Source: Streptomyces luomodiensis
GTDB lineage: Bacteria > Actinomycetota > Actinomycetes > Streptomycetales > Streptomycetaceae
DNA length: 64,000 bases
Assembly: GCF_031679605.1 (NCBI RefSeq)
Contig: NZ_CP117522.1
Coordinates: 8,680,001-8,744,000, forward strand
Direction of reading: 5' to 3'
In this document: positions 12,660 through 30,526 of the stretch, piece by piece
Position numbering within the stretch: the first letter of the stretch is position 1
Layout: each line of letters opens with the position of its first letter
Notes under the pieces: generated by a model
Database searches by the model: none
The model's input: only the letters and a program-made list of their open reading frames with translations
Told to the model about the DNA's origin: nothing
Made by a program: the position numbers and the translations under genes

Positions 12660-13868
12660 CTACTCGACTACCTTGAGCAGCTTGTTCGGCGAGCCCGAGC
12701 CGATACCGGACAGGGCCCCCGAGGTGGCCCCGTTCACCAGCGCGGACCCCACCGCGGACGGTGCCGCGGAGGGGTGGCCGGAGAGATAGACCGCCGCGGC
12801 TCCCGAGACGTGCGGAGCCGCGAACGAGGTGCCGTTGCCGGTGTAGGTGGCGGTGTCGGAGGAGTTCCAGCCGGCGGTGATGTTCGAACCCGGGGCGAAG
12901 AGGTCCACGACCGACCCGTAGTTGGAGTAGCTCGCCCGCGCGTCGGCGCTGGTGGTGGCGCCGACCGTGAGGGCGGCCGCCACCCTGGCGGGGGAGTAGT
13001 TCGCGGCGTTGGCGTTCGAGTTGCCCGCGGCGATGGAGTAGGTCACGCCGGAGGCGATGGAGTTGTTCACCGCGGTGTCCAGCGAGGTGCTGGCGCCGCC
13101 GCCCAGCGACACATTGGCCACCGACGGGCCGGAGTGGTTGGCGGTGATCCAGTCCACGCCCGCGATGACACCGGCCGTGGTGCCCGACCCGTCGTTGCCG
13201 AGCACCCGCACCGCCACGATCTTCGCCTTCTTGGCCACGCCGTAGGTGCTGCCGGCGACGGTCGTGGCCACGTGGGTCCCATGGCCGTAACCGTCCTGCG
13301 CGGTGGTGTCGTTGTCCACGAAGTCATAGCCGTAGGAGGCCCGGCCGCTGATCTCCGTATGCGTGATCCGCACACCGGTGTCCAGGACGTAGACCGTCAC
13401 CCCGCTGCCGGCGCTGTCGGGGTAGGTGTACGTGCCGCTCAGCGGCAGACCGGCCTGGTCGACCCGGTCCAGGCCCCAGGGTGCGTTGGTCTGGGTGGCA
13501 TCGGCGTGGACCTCGCGGTCCTGCTCGACGGAGGCGACGGCCGGATCGGCGGCGAGCCGTCTGGCCTCGGTGGCGCTCAGCTTCGCCGCATAGCCGTTCA
13601 GCGCCGTGGTGTAGGTCCGCCGCACCTCGCCGCCGTATCCGGAGACGAGGTCCTTCCCCTCGCCGGAGGTGGCCTTCAGACCGGATGTCTTCTTCAAGGT
13701 GACGATGTAGCTGCCGGGGATCGCGTCGGCGGCGCCGGCGTGCAGCACCGTGCCTTCGGCCGGTGCGGCGTGCGCGGGGAGCGCCGTGCCTGCTCCGACG
13801 CAGACGGCGGCGGCCGCCGCCGCGATCGCTGCGGCGATCCGCCGCTTGGTGGTACGCATCACTGCCAT
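12660..13868 (-). CDS. Secreted subtilisin-family serine protease (S8)
   Basis: A 402-residue preproprotein. The signal peptide (residues 1-34, ending AHA) is followed by an inhibitor I9 propeptide (PGSYIVTLKK to about 120) and the S8 catalytic domain. The catalytic triad is Asp163 (VLDTGV), His196 (GHGTHVA) and Ser348 (GTSFAAPH), with the oxyanion Asn283. It is exported and probably self-activates by removing the propeptide. A GAGGAGG site precedes the ATG. No C-terminal cell-wall or P-domain is present. Related actinomycete enzymes are extracellular alkaline proteases. Confidence 0.93.
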   Translation of the reverse strand: MAVMRTTKRRIAAAIAAAAAAVCVGAGTALPAHAAPAEGTVLHAGAADAIPGSYIVTLKKTSGLKATSGEGKDLVSGYGGEVRRTYTTALNGYAAKLSATEARRLAADPAVASVEQDREVHADATQTNAPWGLDRVDQAGLPLSGTYTYPDSAGSGVTVYVLDTGVRITHTEISGRASYGYDFVDNDTTAQDGYGHGTHVATTVAGSTYGVAKKAKIVAVRVLGNDGSGTTAGVIAGVDWITANHSGPSVANVSLGGGASTSLDTAVNNSIASGVTYSIAAGNSNANAANYSPARVAAALTVGATTSADARASYSNYGSVVDLFAPGSNITAGWNSSDTATYTGNGTSFAAPHVSGAAAVYLSGHPSAAPSAVGSALVNGATSGALSGIGSGSPNKLLKVVE

Positions 13869-18159: not shown

Positions 18160-18411
18160 TGTGAGCAAACCGCGTCGATGATGTGTGCGGATGTGCCTGA
18201 CGTGTGATCGGAAAGTGGTGGAATGCCCGATTCCGGGGGTTGGCTGATTCGCGACGCCGCGAGCCCCGTGGTTACATCCCCATTCCGCGCTCAGGCAGCC
18301 ACGGACCCCGGGTCTCCCGGAGCCCCGTGGCTGGCCGCGGGAGCCGATCCCCTTCGGCCCCCAGGCGCTGTTGCAAGCTCAACGAGACAGTCACCCAAGG
18401 GAGACGCAACA

Positions 18412-18630
18412 ATGAACAACGCGCCCAAGGTCGCGACCCAGGAGATTTCCGACGCCGAGCTGGACAACGTGGCCGGCGGCATCGGCAACCCGGTGGGCGA
18501 CGTCCTCGGCACGGTCGACTCCGTCACCGGCCCGGTGGCCGGCGTCGTCGGCACCGTGACCGGCACGGTTGACGGTCTCACCGGCCTGAACACCACCGGC
18601 ATCGTCGGTGGGGTCGTCAGCAGCCTCTGA
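18412..18630 (+). CDS. Double-glycine leader precursor peptide (bacteriocin/RiPP-like)
   Basis: A 72-residue peptide. The ATG follows AAGGGAG. The leader (residues 1-23) ends in the typical recognition sequence ISDAELDNVAGG, cleaved after Gly-Gly by C39 peptidases. The 49-residue core is rich in Val, Gly and Thr with repeated GTV units (VLGTVDSVTG, VVGTVTGTVDG) and has no Cys, so lanthionine rings are impossible unless Cys is supplied elsewhere. No LanM, YcaO, radical SAM or other modifying enzyme is adjacent. It is followed by a terminator hairpin and then its exporters. It may be an unmodified secreted peptide or be modified in trans. Confidence 0.85.
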   Translation: MNNAPKVATQEISDAELDNVAGGIGNPVGDVLGTVDSVTGPVAGVVGTVTGTVDGLTGLNTTGIVGGVVSSL

Positions 18631-18651
18631 GGCTGACGCACCGCCTTCCCC

Positions 18652-18680
18652 GTGCCCCGGACCCGCCAGGTCCGGGGCAC
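18652..18680 (+). terminator. Hairpin between precursor and exporter genes
   Basis: GTGCCCCGGACC (18652-18663) pairs perfectly with GGTCCGGGGCAC (18669-18680) around a 5-nt loop. It lies 21 bp after the peptide stop and 79 bp before the first transporter gene. Partial termination here would give more peptide mRNA than exporter mRNA, as is common for bacteriocin operons. Confidence 0.7.
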
Positions 18681-18759
18681 TCGGCGGTCCGCGCCCGCCT
18701 CATCGAGCACTCCACCCGTGGTGTCCGGCCACTCCCCTCGCGGTTGAGGAAAGACTTTC

Positions 18760-19566
18760 GTGCAGTTCCGCCAGCAGGCCCTCACCAAGCTCCAGTCGGC
18801 AGAGGACATCGATCTGCCGGTGCGCTACGCCCGCCCCCAGGGATGGCTGGCGCTGGCGGTGACGATGGTGGTCATGGCCGGTGCCGCCGTATGGGCCGTC
18901 ACGGGCGCCGTCTCCAGCACCCTGGAAGCCACCGGGATCCTCACCCACGGACAGGGCAGCTATGTGCTGCAGAGCCCGATCGCGGGCCAGGTGACCTCGG
19001 TCCTCGCGCGCGAGGGCAGCACCCTCCCGGCGGGAGCGCCGCTGCTGAAGGTCCGCACCGACCGGGGCACCACCGTCGTGCGCACCATCGCCGCCGGCCG
19101 GCTCACCGCCCTTTCCGCCTCGATCGGCTCCGTGCTGAACACCGGTGCCGACGTCGCGTCCGTGGAGCGGGTCGGCCACTCCGGCGACCCCCTGGTGGCG
19201 ACCCTGTACGTCCCCGCGGACCGGGCGGCCTCGGTCCGGGCGGGCGCGTCGGTCGACCTCAGTGTGCAGTCCGTGCCCACGCAGACCTATGGGGTGCTGC
19301 GCGGTGCGGTGCAAGCCGTCGGCCGGACCGCCCAGTCGTCCCAGCAGATCGGCTCCTACCTCGGCAGCGAGCAGCTCGGCGCGGAGTTCTCCAAGCACGG
19401 TCCGCCGGTCGCGGTCCAGGTGCGCCTCGACCGCAGCTCCGCCACCCGCTCCGGCTACCGCTGGTCGTCCCCCGAGGGCCCGCCGTTCGCCCTCGGCTCC
19501 ATGACCCTGACCAGCGGCACCATCCACCTGGCCGACCGCCACCCCATCGATTGGCTGCTCCCGTGA
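18760..19566 (+). CDS. HlyD-like membrane fusion protein of the peptide exporter (NHLM type)
   Basis: A 268-residue protein. GTG 18760 follows GAGGAAAG. One N-terminal membrane helix (LALAVTMVVMAGAAVWAVTG) anchors a biotinyl-lipoyl-like domain (VLQSPIAGQVTSVLAREG with GAPLLKVRTD). It is shorter than Gram-negative HlyD proteins and matches the secretion proteins of NHLM bacteriocin systems. It should link the ABC exporters to the cell exterior. Its stop overlaps the next start (GTGA). Confidence 0.8.
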   Translation: MQFRQQALTKLQSAEDIDLPVRYARPQGWLALAVTMVVMAGAAVWAVTGAVSSTLEATGILTHGQGSYVLQSPIAGQVTSVLAREGSTLPAGAPLLKVRTDRGTTVVRTIAAGRLTALSASIGSVLNTGADVASVERVGHSGDPLVATLYVPADRAASVRAGASVDLSVQSVPTQTYGVLRGAVQAVGRTAQSSQQIGSYLGSEQLGAEFSKHGPPVAVQVRLDRSSATRSGYRWSSPEGPPFALGSMTLTSGTIHLADRHPIDWLLP

Positions 19567-21845
19567 CCGCGACGAACCAAGGCGGCCCGCCCCGGCCCGC
19601 ACCCGCCGGAAGCAGCGGGGCGCGCCGCCCCCAGCCGGCCCGCGGCCGGCGGCGCGCCCCGCGCGGCGGAGGCGGGCCGAGGACATCCAGGCGCCGGACC
19701 GTGCGCACCCCCACCGTGCTCCAGATGGAGGCCCTGGAGTGCGGTGCGGCGTCGCTGGCCATGGTGCTCGGACACTACGGGCGCCACGTCCCGCTGGAGG
19801 AACTGCGGATCGCCTGCGGTGTCTCCCGGGACGGATCGCGCGCCAGCAATCTGCTCAAGGCCGCCCGCGGCTACGGCCTGCGCGCCAAGGGCATGCAGAT
19901 GGAGCCCGAGGCCCTCGCGGAGGTCCAGGCCCCGGCGATCCTGTTCTGGGAGTTCAACCACTACGTCGTCTACGACGGCATGGGACGGCGGTTCGGCAAG
20001 CGCGGCGTCCACATCAACGACCCCGACAAGGGCCGCCGTTTCGTCCCCGTCGAGGAGTTCGACACCAGCTTCACCGGTGTGGTCCTGGTCTTCGAACCCG
20101 AGGAGTCCTTCCGCCGGGGCGGCCGCCGCCCCGGGGTGCTGGGTGCCCTGCCCGCGCGGATGCGCGGCACCACGGGCACCTTGCTGGCATCGCTGCTGGC
20201 CAGCCTGTTGCTGGTGGCGGTGGGGGCCGCGGTGCCGGCGCTCAGCCGCGCCTTCATCGACGGCTTCCTGATCGGCGGCCAGGACTCGACGCTGGGCCCG
20301 CTGTTCGCGTCCATGGCCGTGGCGGTGGCGCTGACCGCCGTGCTGACCGGCGTCCAGCAGGCCAATCTGCTGCGCGGACGCATCATCTCCTCCACCCTCG
20401 GCAGCGCGCGGTTCCTGCGGCATCTGCTGCGGCTGCCCGTCACCTTCTTCGCCCAGCGCAGCCCGGCGGACCTGGTCCAGCGGCTGCGCTCCAACGACAC
20501 CGTCGCCGAGACGCTCGCCCGCGATCTGGCCGCCGCGGCCGTCGACGGGATCGTGGTGGTCCTCTACGCCGTTCTGCTGTGGACCTACGACCCCCAGCTC
20601 ACCGTCGTCGGCGTCGGACTGGCGCTGCTCAACGTGGTGGCGATGCGGGTGGTGGTACGGCTGCGGGCCACCAGGACCCAGAAGCTGCGGGCCGACACCG
20701 CGCGGCTGACCACCACCGCGTACACCGGTCTCCAGCTCATCGAGACGGTGAAGGCCACCGGCGGCGAGACCGGCTACTTCCGCCGCTGGGCCGGTCAGCA
20801 CGCCATCACCCTGGACGAACAGCAGCGCCTCGGCGTGCCGAGCGCCTACCTGGCCGTGGTCGCCCCCACCCTCGCCACGCTCAACAGCGCCCTGATCCTG
20901 TGGATCGGCGGGCTGCGGGCCGTCGAGGGACACATCTCCATCGGTCTGCTGGTGGCCTTCCAGGCGCTGGTGGCCCGCTTCACCGCGCCCATCACCCGGC
21001 TCAACGGAGTGGCCGGCCGCGTCCAGGACTTCTCCGCCGACGTGGCCCGGCTCAAGGACGTGGAGAACTTCCCGGTGGACTCCCTCTACACCCGCGACGA
21101 GCCGCGCGCGGACACCCGCAGGCTGACCGGGCAGGTGACGCTGGAGCACATCACCTTCGGCTACAACCCGCTGGACGAACCGCTGCTGCGCGACTTCTCG
21201 CTGTCCGTCGGCCCCGGCCGGCAGGTGGCGCTGGTCGGCGCCTCCGGCAGCGGCAAGTCCACCGTCTCCCGGCTCGTCTCCGGCCTCTACACCCCCTGGG
21301 AGGGGGTCATCCGCATCGACGGACAGCGCCTGGAGGACATCCCCCGCGGTGCGCTGGCCGCCTCGGTCTCCTTCGTCGACCAGGACGTCTTCCTGTTCGA
21401 GGGGACGGTGCGGGACAACGTGGCGCTGTGGGACCCGTCCATCCCGGACGACGCGGTGGTGGAGGCCCTGCGGGACGCCGCGCTCTACGACGATGTGATC
21501 GCACGCCGCCCGGAGGGCATCCACTGCCGGGTGGAGCAGGACGGCCGGAACTTCTCCGGCGGCCAGCGGCAGCGGCTGGAGATCGCCCGCGCCCTGGTGC
21601 GGCGCCCCAGCGTCCTGGTGCTGGACGAGGTCACCAGCGCCCTGGACGCGCGGACCGAGCAGATCGTGATGGACAACCTGCGCCGCCGCGGCTGTGCGTG
21701 TGTGGTGATCGCCCACCGGCTCAGCACCGTGCGCGACAGCGACGAGATCCTCGTCCTGAACCGTGGCACGGTCGTCGAACGCGGACGGCACGAGGACCTC
21801 GCCGCCGCCCAGGGCCCGTACGCCGAGCTGATGAAGGAGCACTGA
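19563..21845 (+). CDS. Peptidase C39-ABC exporter (NHLM ABC1 type)
   Basis: A 760-residue protein; GTG 19563 overlaps the upstream TGA. After a Pro/Arg-rich N-terminus (1-45) comes the C39 peptidase with Cys60 (QMEALECGAASLAMVLGHYG), His133 (NHYVVYDG) and Asp153 (NDPDKG). The membrane domain covers roughly 190-480. The ATPase has Walker A GASGSGKST, signature FSGGQRQRLE and Walker B VLVLDEVTSALD. It should cut the leader after Gly-Gly and export the core peptide. The peptidase residues are intact. Confidence 0.92.
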   Translation: MTATNQGGPPRPAPAGSSGARRPQPARGRRRAPRGGGGPRTSRRRTVRTPTVLQMEALECGAASLAMVLGHYGRHVPLEELRIACGVSRDGSRASNLLKAARGYGLRAKGMQMEPEALAEVQAPAILFWEFNHYVVYDGMGRRFGKRGVHINDPDKGRRFVPVEEFDTSFTGVVLVFEPEESFRRGGRRPGVLGALPARMRGTTGTLLASLLASLLLVAVGAAVPALSRAFIDGFLIGGQDSTLGPLFASMAVAVALTAVLTGVQQANLLRGRIISSTLGSARFLRHLLRLPVTFFAQRSPADLVQRLRSNDTVAETLARDLAAAAVDGIVVVLYAVLLWTYDPQLTVVGVGLALLNVVAMRVVVRLRATRTQKLRADTARLTTTAYTGLQLIETVKATGGETGYFRRWAGQHAITLDEQQRLGVPSAYLAVVAPTLATLNSALILWIGGLRAVEGHISIGLLVAFQALVARFTAPITRLNGVAGRVQDFSADVARLKDVENFPVDSLYTRDEPRADTRRLTGQVTLEHITFGYNPLDEPLLRDFSLSVGPGRQVALVGASGSGKSTVSRLVSGLYTPWEGVIRIDGQRLEDIPRGALAASVSFVDQDVFLFEGTVRDNVALWDPSIPDDAVVEALRDAALYDDVIARRPEGIHCRVEQDGRNFSGGQRQRLEIARALVRRPSVLVLDEVTSALDARTEQIVMDNLRRRGCACVVIAHRLSTVRDSDEILVLNRGTVVERGRHEDLAAAQGPYAELMKEH

Positions 21846-21846
21846 C

Positions 21847-24720
21847 ATGGCGTCCGTTCACCCGTCCGCGGCGGTGGCCGCGGACGGCGGCGACGCGGTG
21901 GTCCAGGCGCTGGGCGCCCTCGGCACGCCCGTCGACCTCGCCGGAGCGCGCAGCCTCCCGCTGGAGGGCCCGCAGGTGCTCTGGCTGGTCGTCGGCGGTG
22001 CCCTGGACCTGTTCGCGGTCGACGCCGCCGAGGAGGGCCAGTGGCACTTCCTCGGCCGGCTGGAGACGGGCGCCGCGCTGCCGGGCCCGGTCGAGGGGCC
22101 GCGGCACACCCTGCTGGGCCGGCCCTCGCAGGACTGCCTGGTGCGCCGTATCCCGCTGCGCGAGCTGTACCGCCCGGAGGCGTACGACCCGTACGGCACG
22201 GACCCGGCCCACGACCCGTACGGCGCGTACGGGGGCGGCGGATTCCAGGACACCCCGCCCACCCCGCTGGAGCACGCCGTGTCGCTCGGGGTGAGCCGCA
22301 GCCTCGGCGTCCTCTTCCAGGCCCCGCTGGACGGCGGGACCGCGCCCGACTCGGAGGCGGCCGACGAGGACCTGCTCTGGCTTCCGGTACCGCCCGGCAG
22401 CGTGCGCTACGGCGCCGAGTACAGCGCCCAGGCCGCCGGGGACCTGCTGATCGACGGCGCGCTGTGGCAGCGGATGGTCAATCAGCAGTACCGCCTGGGC
22501 ACCGCCGTGGACCGCTGGATCGAGACCATGGAGCGGGCCCACGCGGACCGTACGGCGGCCGGTATCCGCGCGGGTGAGGCCGTGCGCACCCGCGCCGACC
22601 AGGCGCTGATCGCCTCCATCGCCGGGCCGCGGCGGGAGCGGTGGTCGTCGGAGGAGAGCACCGACGACGCCGTGTACGCGATATGCCGCCGCGTGGCGGA
22701 GGCCGCCGGGATCACCCTGCCCGAGCCGCCGAGGGTCCGCGCCACCGACGACCGCACGGACCCGGTGGAGCGCATCGCCGCCCACGCGCGGATCCGCACC
22801 CGCGCCGTCCGGCTGGAGGGCCGCTGGTGGCGGGAGGACGCCGGACCGCTGGTGGGCTACCGGGCCAAGTCCGGGGCCCCGGTGGCGCTGCTGTGGCGGC
22901 GCGGCCGGTACGAGGCGGTCAATCCCGCCTCGGGTCTGCGCATCCGCGTCGGCCCGGACAACGCGGATCAGTTCGAGCCGCGGGCCGTGATGTTCTACCG
23001 TCCGCTGCCCGACCGTCCGATGACGGTGTGGCGGCTGATGCGCTTCAGCGCCCGCGGCGCCGCCGGGGACATCCGCAACCTCGCGATCGCGGGGCTGGTG
23101 ACGGTGGCGCTCGGCGCGCTGGTGCCCCTGGCCACCGGTCGGGTGCTGGGCGGATTCGTGCCCCGCGCCGAGAAGGACCCCATCGTCCAGATCTCCCTGG
23201 CCCTGATCGTCGCCGGCGTTGTCGCGGCCGCCTTCATGCTGCTCCAGAACCTCACCCTGCTGCGGCTGGAGGGGCGGCTGGAGTCCACCCTCCAGCCCGC
23301 GGTGTGGGACCGGCTGCTGCGGCTGCCCACCACCTTCTTCGCCCGGCGCTCCACCGGAGAGCTGGCCAGCGCGGCGATGGGCATCAGCGCCATGCGCCGG
23401 GTGCTGTCCGGGGTCGCCCCGACGGTCCTCCAGGCCGGCACGGTGGGCGCGGTGAACCTCGCCCTGCTGCTGTACTACAGCGCCTCGCTGGCGCTCGCGG
23501 TGATCGCCCTGCTGCTGGTGGTCTCCGGGGTCTTCCTCGGCATGGGGCTGTGGCAGGTGCGCTGGCAGCGACGGCTGGTGGAGAGCGAGAACAAGCTCAA
23601 CAACCAGGCGTTCCAGACCCTGCGCGGGCTGCCCAAGCTGCGGGTCGCCGCGGCCGAGAACTTCGCCTACGCGGCCTGGGCCCGTGGCTTCGCCCACTCC
23701 CGCGATCTGCATCAGCGCACCGGCCGCATCAAGAACCTCACCCAGGTGCTGGACGCGGTCTACCTCCCGCTGGTCTCGCTCATCGTGTTCATGCTGCTGG
23801 CCGGCCCGGCGCGGGGGAGCATGTCGGCGGGCGCCTTCCTGACCTTCAACACCTCGGTGACCATGCTGCTCACCTCCCTCACCCAGCTCACCAATGCGCT
23901 GGTCTCGGTGGTCGCGGTACTGCCCCTGTTCGAGCAGGTCAAGCCGATCCTGGACGAGCCGCCCGAGGTCCGTGGCGGCAGCGCGCAGCCGGGGGTGCTC
24001 TCCGGCGACCTCCGGGCCAAGAACCTCACCTTCCGCTACGGTGCCGACGGGCCGCTGGTGCTCGACGACGTCTCGCTGGAGATCCGGCCGGGCGAGTTCG
24101 TGGCCGTCGTCGGTCCGAGCGGCTGCGGCAAGTCGACCCTGCTGCGGTTGCTGATCGGCTTCGAACGGCCGGTGTCCGGCAGTGTGCTCTACGACGGCCA
24201 GGACCTCGCCGCCCTCGACCAGGCGGCCGTGCGCCGCCAGTGCGGGGTGGTCCTCCAGAACGCCCAGCCGCTGGGCGGTACGGTGCTGGACTGCATCCGC
24301 GGCGCCGAGCCGTTCACCCCCGAGGAGGCCATGGCCGCCGCCGAACTGGCCGGTCTGGCGGAGGACATCCGGCAGATGCCCATGGGGCTCCAGACCATGA
24401 TCTCCGGCAGTGGCGCCATCTCCGGCGGTCAGCGGCAGCGGCTGATGATCGCCCAGGCCCTGATCCGCCGCCCGCGCATCCTCTTCTTCGACGAGGCCAC
24501 CAGCGCCCTGGACAACGAGACCCAGCGCATCGTCATCGACAGCACCCGCCGGCTCAACGCCAGCCGGCTGGTGATCGCGCACCGGCTGTCCACCGTCATG
24601 GACGCCGACCGCGTCCTGGTCATGGCGGACGGCCGGATCGTGGAGCAGGGCGCCCCGGCCGAGCTGATGGCCCTCCCCGACGGGAAGCTGCGCGAACTGG
24701 TGCGGCGCCAGATGAGCTAG
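21847..24720 (+). CDS. Second ABC exporter of the peptide cassette (NHLM ABC2 type)
   Basis: A 957-residue protein starting one base after the previous stop. It lacks the C39 domain. The long N-terminal region (about 1-390) is a soluble segment typical of NHLM ABC2 proteins, including a Tyr/Gly-rich stretch (YDPYGTDPAHDPYGAYGGGG). Then come a six-helix membrane domain and an ATPase with Walker A VGPSGCGKST, signature ISGGQRQRLM and Walker B ILFFDEATSALD. NHLM systems always pair it with the peptidase ABC protein. The pair presumably works as a heterodimer or in series. Confidence 0.9.
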   Translation: MASVHPSAAVAADGGDAVVQALGALGTPVDLAGARSLPLEGPQVLWLVVGGALDLFAVDAAEEGQWHFLGRLETGAALPGPVEGPRHTLLGRPSQDCLVRRIPLRELYRPEAYDPYGTDPAHDPYGAYGGGGFQDTPPTPLEHAVSLGVSRSLGVLFQAPLDGGTAPDSEAADEDLLWLPVPPGSVRYGAEYSAQAAGDLLIDGALWQRMVNQQYRLGTAVDRWIETMERAHADRTAAGIRAGEAVRTRADQALIASIAGPRRERWSSEESTDDAVYAICRRVAEAAGITLPEPPRVRATDDRTDPVERIAAHARIRTRAVRLEGRWWREDAGPLVGYRAKSGAPVALLWRRGRYEAVNPASGLRIRVGPDNADQFEPRAVMFYRPLPDRPMTVWRLMRFSARGAAGDIRNLAIAGLVTVALGALVPLATGRVLGGFVPRAEKDPIVQISLALIVAGVVAAAFMLLQNLTLLRLEGRLESTLQPAVWDRLLRLPTTFFARRSTGELASAAMGISAMRRVLSGVAPTVLQAGTVGAVNLALLLYYSASLALAVIALLLVVSGVFLGMGLWQVRWQRRLVESENKLNNQAFQTLRGLPKLRVAAAENFAYAAWARGFAHSRDLHQRTGRIKNLTQVLDAVYLPLVSLIVFMLLAGPARGSMSAGAFLTFNTSVTMLLTSLTQLTNALVSVVAVLPLFEQVKPILDEPPEVRGGSAQPGVLSGDLRAKNLTFRYGADGPLVLDDVSLEIRPGEFVAVVGPSGCGKSTLLRLLIGFERPVSGSVLYDGQDLAALDQAAVRRQCGVVLQNAQPLGGTVLDCIRGAEPFTPEEAMAAAELAGLAEDIRQMPMGLQTMISGSGAISGGQRQRLMIAQALIRRPRILFFDEATSALDNETQRIVIDSTRRLNASRLVIAHRLSTVMDADRVLVMADGRIVEQGAPAELMALPDGKLRELVRRQMS

Positions 24721-28219: not shown

Positions 28220-30526
28220 TTGTCAAATGAGGAAATGGACCGTGAGCAAGAATTCCTCGATCTGCTCAACGGGCGCCTCGCCGAACTCACGGCGCACGCC
28301 GAGGAGGCGGTGACCGAGGCCCTGTCCCTGGAGGGCACCACCTTCCAGGCCCGGCTGGAGCGCGATGTGCTGGTGGCCGAGCGGTCCGGACTGCTCGCCG
28401 CGTTCGAGGCGGGGGAGCGCGGGCTGTGCTTCGGCCGGCTGCTGTTCCGCGACGGCCGCGACCACCACATCGGCCGTATCGGCATCCGCCGCGACGACGC
28501 GGACCGCACCCCGCTGGTCATCGACTGGCGGGCCGAGGTGGCGCGTCCGTTCTACCTCGCCACCGGCCACACCCCCATGGGGCTGCGCCGCAGGCGCCAC
28601 ATCACCACCGAGGGCCCCAAGGTCACCGGGCTGCACGACGAGATCCTGGACCTCGACGACACCGTGCGGACCGGGCACGAGGGGTCCGACGCGGACGCCG
28701 TGCTGCTGGCCGCGCTGGACGCCGCGCGCACCGGCCGAATGCATGACATCGTGCAGACCATCCAGGCCGAACAGGACCGGATCATCCGCGCCCCGCACCA
28801 CGGGGTGCATGTCGTCGAGGGCGGCCCCGGCACCGGGAAGACCGTCGTCGCGCTGCACCGTGCCGCGTATCTGCTCTACGCGCACCGCGAGTCGCTGGCC
28901 CGCCGCGCGGTGCTGGTCGTCGGGCCCAACCCGGCGTTCCTCGGTTACATCGGAGAGGTGCTGCCCTCGCTCGGCGAGACGGGTGTGCTCCTCGCCACGC
29001 TCGGCGAACTCTTCCCCGGGGTGACGGCCACCGGCACCGACACCCCCGAGGCCGCCGAGGTCAAGGGCCGCGCCGGGATGGCGGACGCCCTGGCCCGCTT
29101 CGTACGCGACCGGCAGTCGCTGCCCGACCCGGCGATCGTGATCGACCACGACGACGGTGAGCTGGTCCTGGACCGGGACATCGCCTCCGAGGCGGGCCAC
29201 AAGGCCCGGGAGACCGGGCTGCCGCACAACCTGGCCCGGCCGCACTTCGCGTTCCGGGTCATCGACGCCCTCACCGACCAGCTCGTCGACCGGATCGGCG
29301 CGGACCCCTACGGCGGGCCCAACCTCCTCGGCGCGGACGACATCGCCCAGCTCGGCAAGGCGATCGCGGTCAACCCCGAGGTGCACGCCGCCATCGAGGA
29401 GCTGTGGCCGGCCCTCACCCCGGAGCGGCTGGTGGCCGACTTCCTCGCCGACCCCGTCCACCTCCCCGAAGCGGACGCCGCCGCGATCCGCCGCACCGGC
29501 GGCGAGTGGACCCCCGCCGACGTCCCGCTGCTGGACGAGGCCGCAGAACTCCTCGGCCACGACGACGCGGCGGCCCGCGCCCGCGAGGAGGCCGAGCGCC
29601 AGGAGCGCATCGACTACGCGCAGGGCGTGCTCGACCTCTCCTACGGCTCGCGCACCCAGGAGTTCGAGGACCGCGACGACGAGGAGTCGGAGGTGCTGGC
29701 CGCCCATGACCTGATCGACGCCGAACGGCTGGCGGACCGCGCCGAGGAGCGCGACCACCGCAGCGCCGCCGAACGCGCCGCCGCCGACCGCACCTGGGCC
29801 TTCGGCCACATCATCGTGGACGAGGCCCAGGAGCTGTCCGCGATGGCGTGGCGGCTGCTGATGCGGCGCAGCCCCACCCGTTCGATGACCCTGGTCGGCG
29901 ACCCCGCGCAGACCGCGGAACCGGGCGGCTGCGGCTCCTGGTCGGCGATCCTGGCGCCGTACGTCGGCGATCGCTGGGAGCACACCCGGCTCGGCGTCAA
30001 CTACCGCACACCCACCGAGATCATGGAGGTCGCGGCGCGGGTGGCGCGCACCGCCGACCCCGCCTTCACCCCGCCGCGCTCGGTCCGCGCCACCGGCGCA
30101 CGGCCCTGGGCGGAGCGTACCGGCGATCTGCCCGGCGCGGTGGCCGCGGCCGTGGCGCGGGAGACCCGTGCCGAGGGCCGGCTGGCGGTGATCGCCCCGA
30201 GGGACCGCCATGCCGCGCTGTCGGCCGCCCTCCCGGACGCGTCCACCGGCCGCTCCCCGGACCTGACCAGCCCGGTGGTCCTGCTCGACCCCCGGCAGGC
30301 CAAGGGGCTGGAGTTCGACACGGTGATCGTGGCCGAGCCCGCGGAGTTCGGCACCAGTGACCTCTATGTGGCGCTCACCCGGGCCACCCAGCGGCTGGGC
30401 GTGGTGTACACCGGTGAGCTGCCGGCGGGTCTGGACGACCTGGCCGGCCCGGTCGATCAGGAGGAACCCGACGGCTCCGCGGGGACGGTGATGTCCCGGA
30501 ACTCCGCTCGGGCGTCCTCGGTGTAG
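28220..30526 (+). CDS. helR: HelD/HelR-type RNA polymerase-recycling helicase
   Basis: A 768-residue UvrD-like superfamily 1 ATPase. TTG 28220 has GGGAG upstream; ATG 28235 has a site too close. The N-terminal helical coil (EMDREQEFLDLLNGRLAELT) is followed by Walker A GGPGTGKT (201-208), Walker B-like VDEAQELS and the ARQAKGLEFDTVIV-type motif (DPRQAKGLEFDTV), with VALTRATQRL near the end. HelD proteins remove RNA polymerase from stalled or drug-bound complexes; HelR of Streptomyces gives rifampicin resistance. I find no rifamycin-associated element upstream. The symbol is used for the family. Confidence 0.85.
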   Translation: MSNEEMDREQEFLDLLNGRLAELTAHAEEAVTEALSLEGTTFQARLERDVLVAERSGLLAAFEAGERGLCFGRLLFRDGRDHHIGRIGIRRDDADRTPLVIDWRAEVARPFYLATGHTPMGLRRRRHITTEGPKVTGLHDEILDLDDTVRTGHEGSDADAVLLAALDAARTGRMHDIVQTIQAEQDRIIRAPHHGVHVVEGGPGTGKTVVALHRAAYLLYAHRESLARRAVLVVGPNPAFLGYIGEVLPSLGETGVLLATLGELFPGVTATGTDTPEAAEVKGRAGMADALARFVRDRQSLPDPAIVIDHDDGELVLDRDIASEAGHKARETGLPHNLARPHFAFRVIDALTDQLVDRIGADPYGGPNLLGADDIAQLGKAIAVNPEVHAAIEELWPALTPERLVADFLADPVHLPEADAAAIRRTGGEWTPADVPLLDEAAELLGHDDAAARAREEAERQERIDYAQGVLDLSYGSRTQEFEDRDDEESEVLAAHDLIDAERLADRAEERDHRSAAERAAADRTWAFGHIIVDEAQELSAMAWRLLMRRSPTRSMTLVGDPAQTAEPGGCGSWSAILAPYVGDRWEHTRLGVNYRTPTEIMEVAARVARTADPAFTPPRSVRATGARPWAERTGDLPGAVAAAVARETRAEGRLAVIAPRDRHAALSAALPDASTGRSPDLTSPVVLLDPRQAKGLEFDTVIVAEPAEFGTSDLYVALTRATQRLGVVYTGELPAGLDDLAGPVDQEEPDGSAGTVMSRNSARASSV

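Follow-up and report, generated by a model that had tools for sequence, protein, structure and literature searches.

An export cassette without a modification enzyme in Streptomyces, and dispersed precursors that share its leader and promoter element

What is a complete leader-peptidase export apparatus for, when no enzyme that would modify its peptide is encoded next to it? A locus of Streptomyces luomodiensis raises this question. We analysed a stretch of 64,000 nucleotides (the window) from a genome of 10.04 Mb assembled as a single contig. In it, the genes for a precursor peptide, an HlyD-like adaptor, an ABC exporter with a C39 leader peptidase (C39-ABC) and a second ABC exporter follow one another in that order, all on the forward strand; 129 bases separate the precursor gene from the HlyD gene, and the three export genes touch or overlap. 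A first-pass annotation had described these four genes, a 49-residue Cys-free core behind a Gly-Gly leader and the lack of a modification enzyme. Our analysis bears out each of these points, with no tailoring enzyme beside the window cassette. The features, in window positions, are as follows.

18246–18279, forward strand: two-box promoter-like element, GATTCG, 15 nt and CGTGGTTACATCC (box at 18267–18279), from a pattern search
18397–18403, forward strand: ribosome-binding-site-like AAGGGAG, read from the sequence; AAGGG-type sites stand ahead of most relatives listed
18412–18630, forward strand: precursor peptide gene, 72 amino acids, from its open reading frame and family searches, with a PF04604 match
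18412–18480, forward strand: leader, residues 1–23, with a Gly-Gly end and a motif conserved family-wide
18481–18627, forward strand: core, 49 amino acids, the residues after Gly-Gly, with its composition computed
18760–19566, forward strand: HlyD-like adaptor of the NHLM type, 268 amino acids (TIGR03794, E 7e-44, just below cut-off)
19563–21845, forward strand: ABC exporter with C39 leader peptidase (TIGR03796, PF03412, match to 4RY2)
21847–24720, forward strand: second ABC exporter, without a C39 domain (TIGR03797)

We consider that this is probably a complete unit for leader cleavage and export that has no modification dedicated to its peptide, and that the exporter would also serve scattered peptides that share the leader.

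The cassette and its peptide

Both ABC proteins score above the curated cut-offs of their models (C39-ABC, 996 bits against 853 for TIGR03796; second ABC, 886 against 709 for TIGR03797). The HlyD protein reaches 150.4 bits against 156.2 for TIGR03794, and its length of 268 amino acids is the same in most relatives. The C39 domain lies at 19707–20105 (PF03412, E 1.7e-36); the C39-ABC protein contains ECGAA and HYVV..NDP motifs, and its residues 51–759 match the solved peptidase-containing transporter 4RY2. We propose that it would cut the precursor after Gly-Gly and, with the second ABC and HlyD proteins, export a 49-residue anionic, hydrophobic, helix-prone peptide with no dedicated modification.

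The surroundings of the cassette include a subtilisin-like S8 protease with an inhibitor prodomain about 5 kb upstream (12660–13868, reverse strand) and a HelD/HelR-type RNA polymerase recycling helicase (28220–30526, forward strand; NF041258, 696 bits against a curated cut-off of 1100). A search for structured RNA between 16500 and 25000 gave one Rfam match only, far below the gathering score.

Precursor matches at E ≤ 1e-3 occurred in 32 of the 100 genomes searched, the source genome included, and belonged to one genus throughout. The 80 loci that we name here are the best 80 of 311 confirmed candidates by precursor similarity (79 Streptomyces and 1 Kitasatospora), and the set is therefore biased towards cassette-type precursors. 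The four genes stand in order in 77 of the 80, two of which have the last gene cut short, by a strict count that leaves out cross-matches between the two ABC genes; the other three loci (L109, L153 and L165) end at contig ends. No further gene is common to all relatives, either in the 80 named loci or in a first set of 60 sequences (the window and 59 other stretches): the commonest extra neighbour, an S1 protease, is present in 48 of the 80, mostly on the opposite strand, and the commonest in the first set in 16 of the 60. As judged by gene content, the enzyme-less form is thus the normal form of the cassette in Streptomyces. The first-pass annotation had set the locus apart from NHLM cassettes, which it said usually carry enzymes. 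That contrast fails in this genus, in which the enzyme-less form prevails. Neither do homologues consistently keep an enzyme that was lost here, as relatives have no tailoring gene in common, and local loss at the window cassette can be ruled out.

The S1 protease (for example, at L048:11355-12650) is trypsin-type with an alpha-lytic prodomain, and is encoded upstream of the cassette near SpoIIE-type phosphatase genes. Where other loci have this protease, the window flank carries a GST-like gene and a PucR-like regulator.

The leader motif E-I-S-D-A-E/D-L-D-x-V-A/S-G-G is kept across the precursor family. The window core is rich in Thr and Ser, has no Cys, Lys, Arg or aromatic residue, a net charge of −3 and a GRAVY of 0.88. 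The 80 named cassette cores are likewise all free of Cys, Lys, Arg and aromatics (net charge −1 to −3, median GRAVY 1.0); an Arg does occur in L089, the core of a divergent cassette. The cassette core is common to many species and is not strain-specific; the window precursor is 100% identical to one in Streptomyces sp. S465. Over 600 random pairs, dN/dS was about 0.85 for the core and about 0.32 for the leader, values that are unreliable because dS is low. As the leader is slow to change and the core faster, constraint on the core looks partly compositional. The suggestion that the core is built of GTV units is weak: the window core contains GTV three times, but the relatives compared retain mainly one GTVEG-like segment, so that no repeat array is conserved. 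A helical amphipathic periodicity, at 100 or 110 degrees, was found for three cores, that of the window and those of two relatives (p 0.002 to 0.0045, best of six angles, uncorrected). An AlphaFold model of the precursor is helical at low confidence (pLDDT 59), and comparison of the precursor with solved structures gave chance-level matches only.

Precursors away from the exporter

The genus also contains precursors encoded away from the exporter, with the same leader and different cores. In 160 same-genus genomes, we identified the second ABC exporter at E ≤ 1e-180 in 118 (116 over the cut-off), that is, in about three quarters of the Streptomyces genomes sampled, and searched for the precursor at E ≤ 1e-8. 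Precursor matches occurred in 101 of the 160 genomes, all of them among the 118 with the exporter, and in none of the 42 without it. Seventeen exporter genomes lack a strong precursor match; in nine of these, a divergent precursor that matches more weakly stands next to the exporter. In total there were 143 precursor hits, 94 of which are no more than 12 kb away from the second ABC gene, in 94 genomes. Seven further hits were set aside because their genomes have no adjacent precursor match, possibly owing to contig breaks. This leaves 42 orphans in 36 of the 160 genomes, and the exporter is present in all 36 (hypergeometric 3e-6, phylogeny ignored).

Orphan cores are less uniform than cassette cores, with Cys in 8 of 46 and Lys or Arg in 16 of 46. 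Clustering of the orphan cores by BLAST merged 41 of the 46, owing to low complexity, and the grouping was set aside. The loci of two orphans, L084 and L086, have nearby predicted genes in common; in L086, TadE-like and T2SSF proteins are among these, as is a large RHS-repeat protein.

A promoter-like element connects the two groups of precursors. The strict pattern GATTNG-N14-17-CRTGNTTWSATC gave 29 hits in 61 genomes and none in a backward-read control. Each hit, inspected by eye, lies a short way upstream of a precursor of the family, which belongs to a cassette in 26 cases and is an orphan in 3; the pattern was derived from this precursor family, so its specificity, and not its recall, is informative. 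Allowing up to 3 mismatches, the main box (the CGTGCTTTGATCC box) was found at 17 of the 19 first orphans, compared with 65 of 1,200 shuffles of 24 upstream stretches. In an independent test at up to 2 mismatches, the box was present in the 250 nt upstream of 25 of 27 orphans that had not been used in the derivation, all with intact reading frames. At the same stringency it occurred in 11 of 2,700 shuffles and in none of the 646 regions that lie upstream of other predicted genes (those of more than 150 amino acids in the first set of loci). We suggest that some members of the genus use the exporter of the cassette for one to three additional peptides as well, which have its leader but are encoded at other sites, and that the promoter element of the cassette would also switch these on.

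The dispersed paralogues could instead be relics or cargo of other exporters, with leader and promoter merely inherited by duplication. These genomes do have other ABC exporters, and at the stringency used the box is absent at L227 and L236 in the test set and, in the first set, at L091 and at the orphan candidate of the window genome itself (L034:10063-10272, genome position 6,496,063), which has the leader and an Arg in its core. Relics or foreign cargo are nevertheless hard to square with the lack of any precursor match in exporter-less genomes or with a box and reading frames kept in the test orphans, and we consider this explanation unlikely. The proposal that one exporter serves dispersed peptides is itself weakest in the window genome, because the orphan candidate there has no box.

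Modification of the peptide

The first-pass annotation left two options, that the peptide is secreted unmodified or that its enzyme is encoded elsewhere. We scanned the source genome and 60 others of the genus for enzymes acting in trans, taking TIGR03797 over the cut-off as the mark of the second ABC exporter (40 of the 61) and searching at E ≤ 0.001 for YcaO, LanM (PF13575) and LanB-N (PF04738); the scan was confined to these three classes. Among the 40 exporter-bearing genomes, there was no YcaO match in 13, no LanM match in 28 and no LanB-N match in 12, and matches to all three classes were absent in 4 (G009, G026, G040 and G045). Because exporter genomes exist without matches to them, the YcaO, LanM and LanB classes cannot, on these profile searches, be a universal requirement of the cassette.

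In only one of the 40 genomes, G035, did a match to these classes lie within about 20 kb of an enzyme-less cassette (coordinates compared by eye). There (L237, G035:C7:358,001-378,000), a group made up of LanB-N, LanB-C and two YcaO genes starts some 6 kb past the second ABC gene, with beta-lactamase and LysR regulator genes between it and the cassette, which is divergent. The group may be a separate RiPP cluster; it stands as an exception.

Enzymes were seen in one NHLM cassette only, a second cassette that the genome of the window carries elsewhere (L033, 1,788,001–1,808,000). It encodes YcaO and SagB/ThcOx enzymes together with a pair of NHLP-type precursors, both of which end in CCCCSPCCCCT. 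It alone showed such enzymes within the cassette among 41 second-ABC loci over the cut-off, the neighbours of the others having been scanned in part. Open reading frames between its two precursors read like an ABC ATPase and a permease (by reading, not by family search). The radical-SAM motif CX3CX2C occurs in 3 of 1,803 predicted genes, one in L033 and two near the orphans L084 and L085; these two were rejected as local tailoring enzymes, being of the CofH/MqnC type.

A pathway split across the genome, in which an enzyme encoded elsewhere modifies the peptide, for example by dehydration of Thr or Ser, would suit the many such residues in the core. The window genome has two YcaO genes and one partial LanB-type match, distant lanM genes have been reported in cyanobacteria (PMC3140520), and the G035 group could be read in the same way. 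Such a split nonetheless has to contend with the enzyme classes missing from exporter genomes, the lack of a tailoring gene common to the loci and a window core without Cys for thioether or thiazole rings, and it appears distinctly unlikely. As far as sequence can tell, the option of secretion without modification is favoured.

The name under which the family is filed points the other way. Many of the 120 relatives listed are called ‘type A2 lantipeptide’ in the database, and a 2026 paper reads this name as a sign of antimicrobial activity (PMC13047742). The Pfam model L_biotic_typeA (PF04604) does match the window precursor, at 21.8 bits against 21.7, but over residues 6–27, which cover the leader only. 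Cys for thioether rings is present in 0 of the 80 named cassette precursors, and no lanthionine synthetase is common to the loci (80 named loci; first 60 sequences). Given precursors without Cys, the NCBI name looks wrong. The TigB RiPP model NF047709 gives 16.3 bits on the precursor against a cut-off of 70.

We think it very unlikely that the peptide is an unmodified class II-type bacteriocin that kills relatives: it has the Gly-Gly leader and C39-ABC exporter of such a system, the transporter models are named for bacteriocins and the window core shows amphipathic periodicity (100 degrees, p 0.0045, best of six angles, uncorrected), but the 80 named cores are anionic without Lys or Arg, in contrast to cationic bacteriocins, the same core spans many species and no immunity-like gene is common to the loci (80 named; first 60 sequences). 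The most likely reading of the sequence data is one exporter for a set of hydrophobic peptides that are regulated together and are probably unmodified.

Known systems and the role of the peptides

Small hydrophobic peptides with a role at the surface are known from Streptomyces: the lanthipeptide morphogen SapB is exported and acts there. SapB is mentioned in a report on S. coelicolor (PMC6629963), and the window peptide differs from it in having no Cys and no adjacent lanthionine synthetase. The same report describes SCO0753–SCO0756, a gene for a Cys-free hydrophobic peptide, an HlyD gene and two ABC exporter genes, in the gene order of the window cassette. From this description, we infer that the two are of the same kind; the SCO0753 peptide is given as 77 amino acids, and the relatives here are mostly 71. 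With an activated kinase (SCO5282-D125G), sco0753 was the single most overexpressed gene (log2 6.3), and in the null mutant the SCO0753–SCO0756 genes were hardly expressed; the authors noted that the peptide has no Cys and might alter the hyphal surface (PMC6629963). Elsewhere, SCO0753 was up-regulated in an aor1 mutant (PMC5733086), sco0756 was up-regulated upon loss of Ppm1 (PMC5882110) and SCO0756 stood at 0.6-fold in a copper-related comparison (PMC6414726).

The same three export proteins (TIGR03794, TIGR03796 and TIGR03797) form the NHLM cassette described with NHLP and Nif11 precursors (PMC2887384). In contrast to that system, no heterocycle or lanthionine enzyme stands alongside, and the window precursor, with its leader of 23 amino acids, matches neither the NHLP nor the Nif11 model at E ≤ 0.01. 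Cyanobacterial group V clusters likewise combine HlyD, C39-ABC and a second ABC without C39, but groups II–V have more than 3 precursors on average (PMC3140520), whereas here one stands beside the cassette and the others are scattered. Neither dispersed paralogues nor a shared promoter feature in the account of SCO0753–SCO0756 in PMC6629963, and we found no description of either in the open-licence literature, judged mostly from listings. The cassette type is already in print, and the dispersed, promoter-sharing set of precursors is likely to be the new part.

Whether such use is general is evenly balanced in our view: the Streptomyces exporter, present in 116 to 118 of 160 genomes, may serve a dispersed, co-regulated suite of unmodified peptides in at least 36 of the 118. 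If so, the suite would be a secreted-peptide regulon, marked by a leader and a private promoter element, and not a biosynthetic gene cluster. Mining based on clusters would then overlook many members, since their genes are not linked to those of the exporter, and a search for the leader together with a short promoter motif would find them. Genome mining is also misled by a family that is filed under ‘lantipeptide’ and lacks the essentials of one. The 80 named cores, having no Lys, Arg or aromatics, would be hard to detect by trypsin proteomics or by absorbance at 280 nm. The properties of the peptides and one transcriptome suggest that they perhaps work at the cell envelope or on the surface of the hyphae and are not classical bacteriocins. 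A link to a two-component system that alters hyphal dispersal is already published, and makes a cell-surface role directly testable in S. coelicolor.
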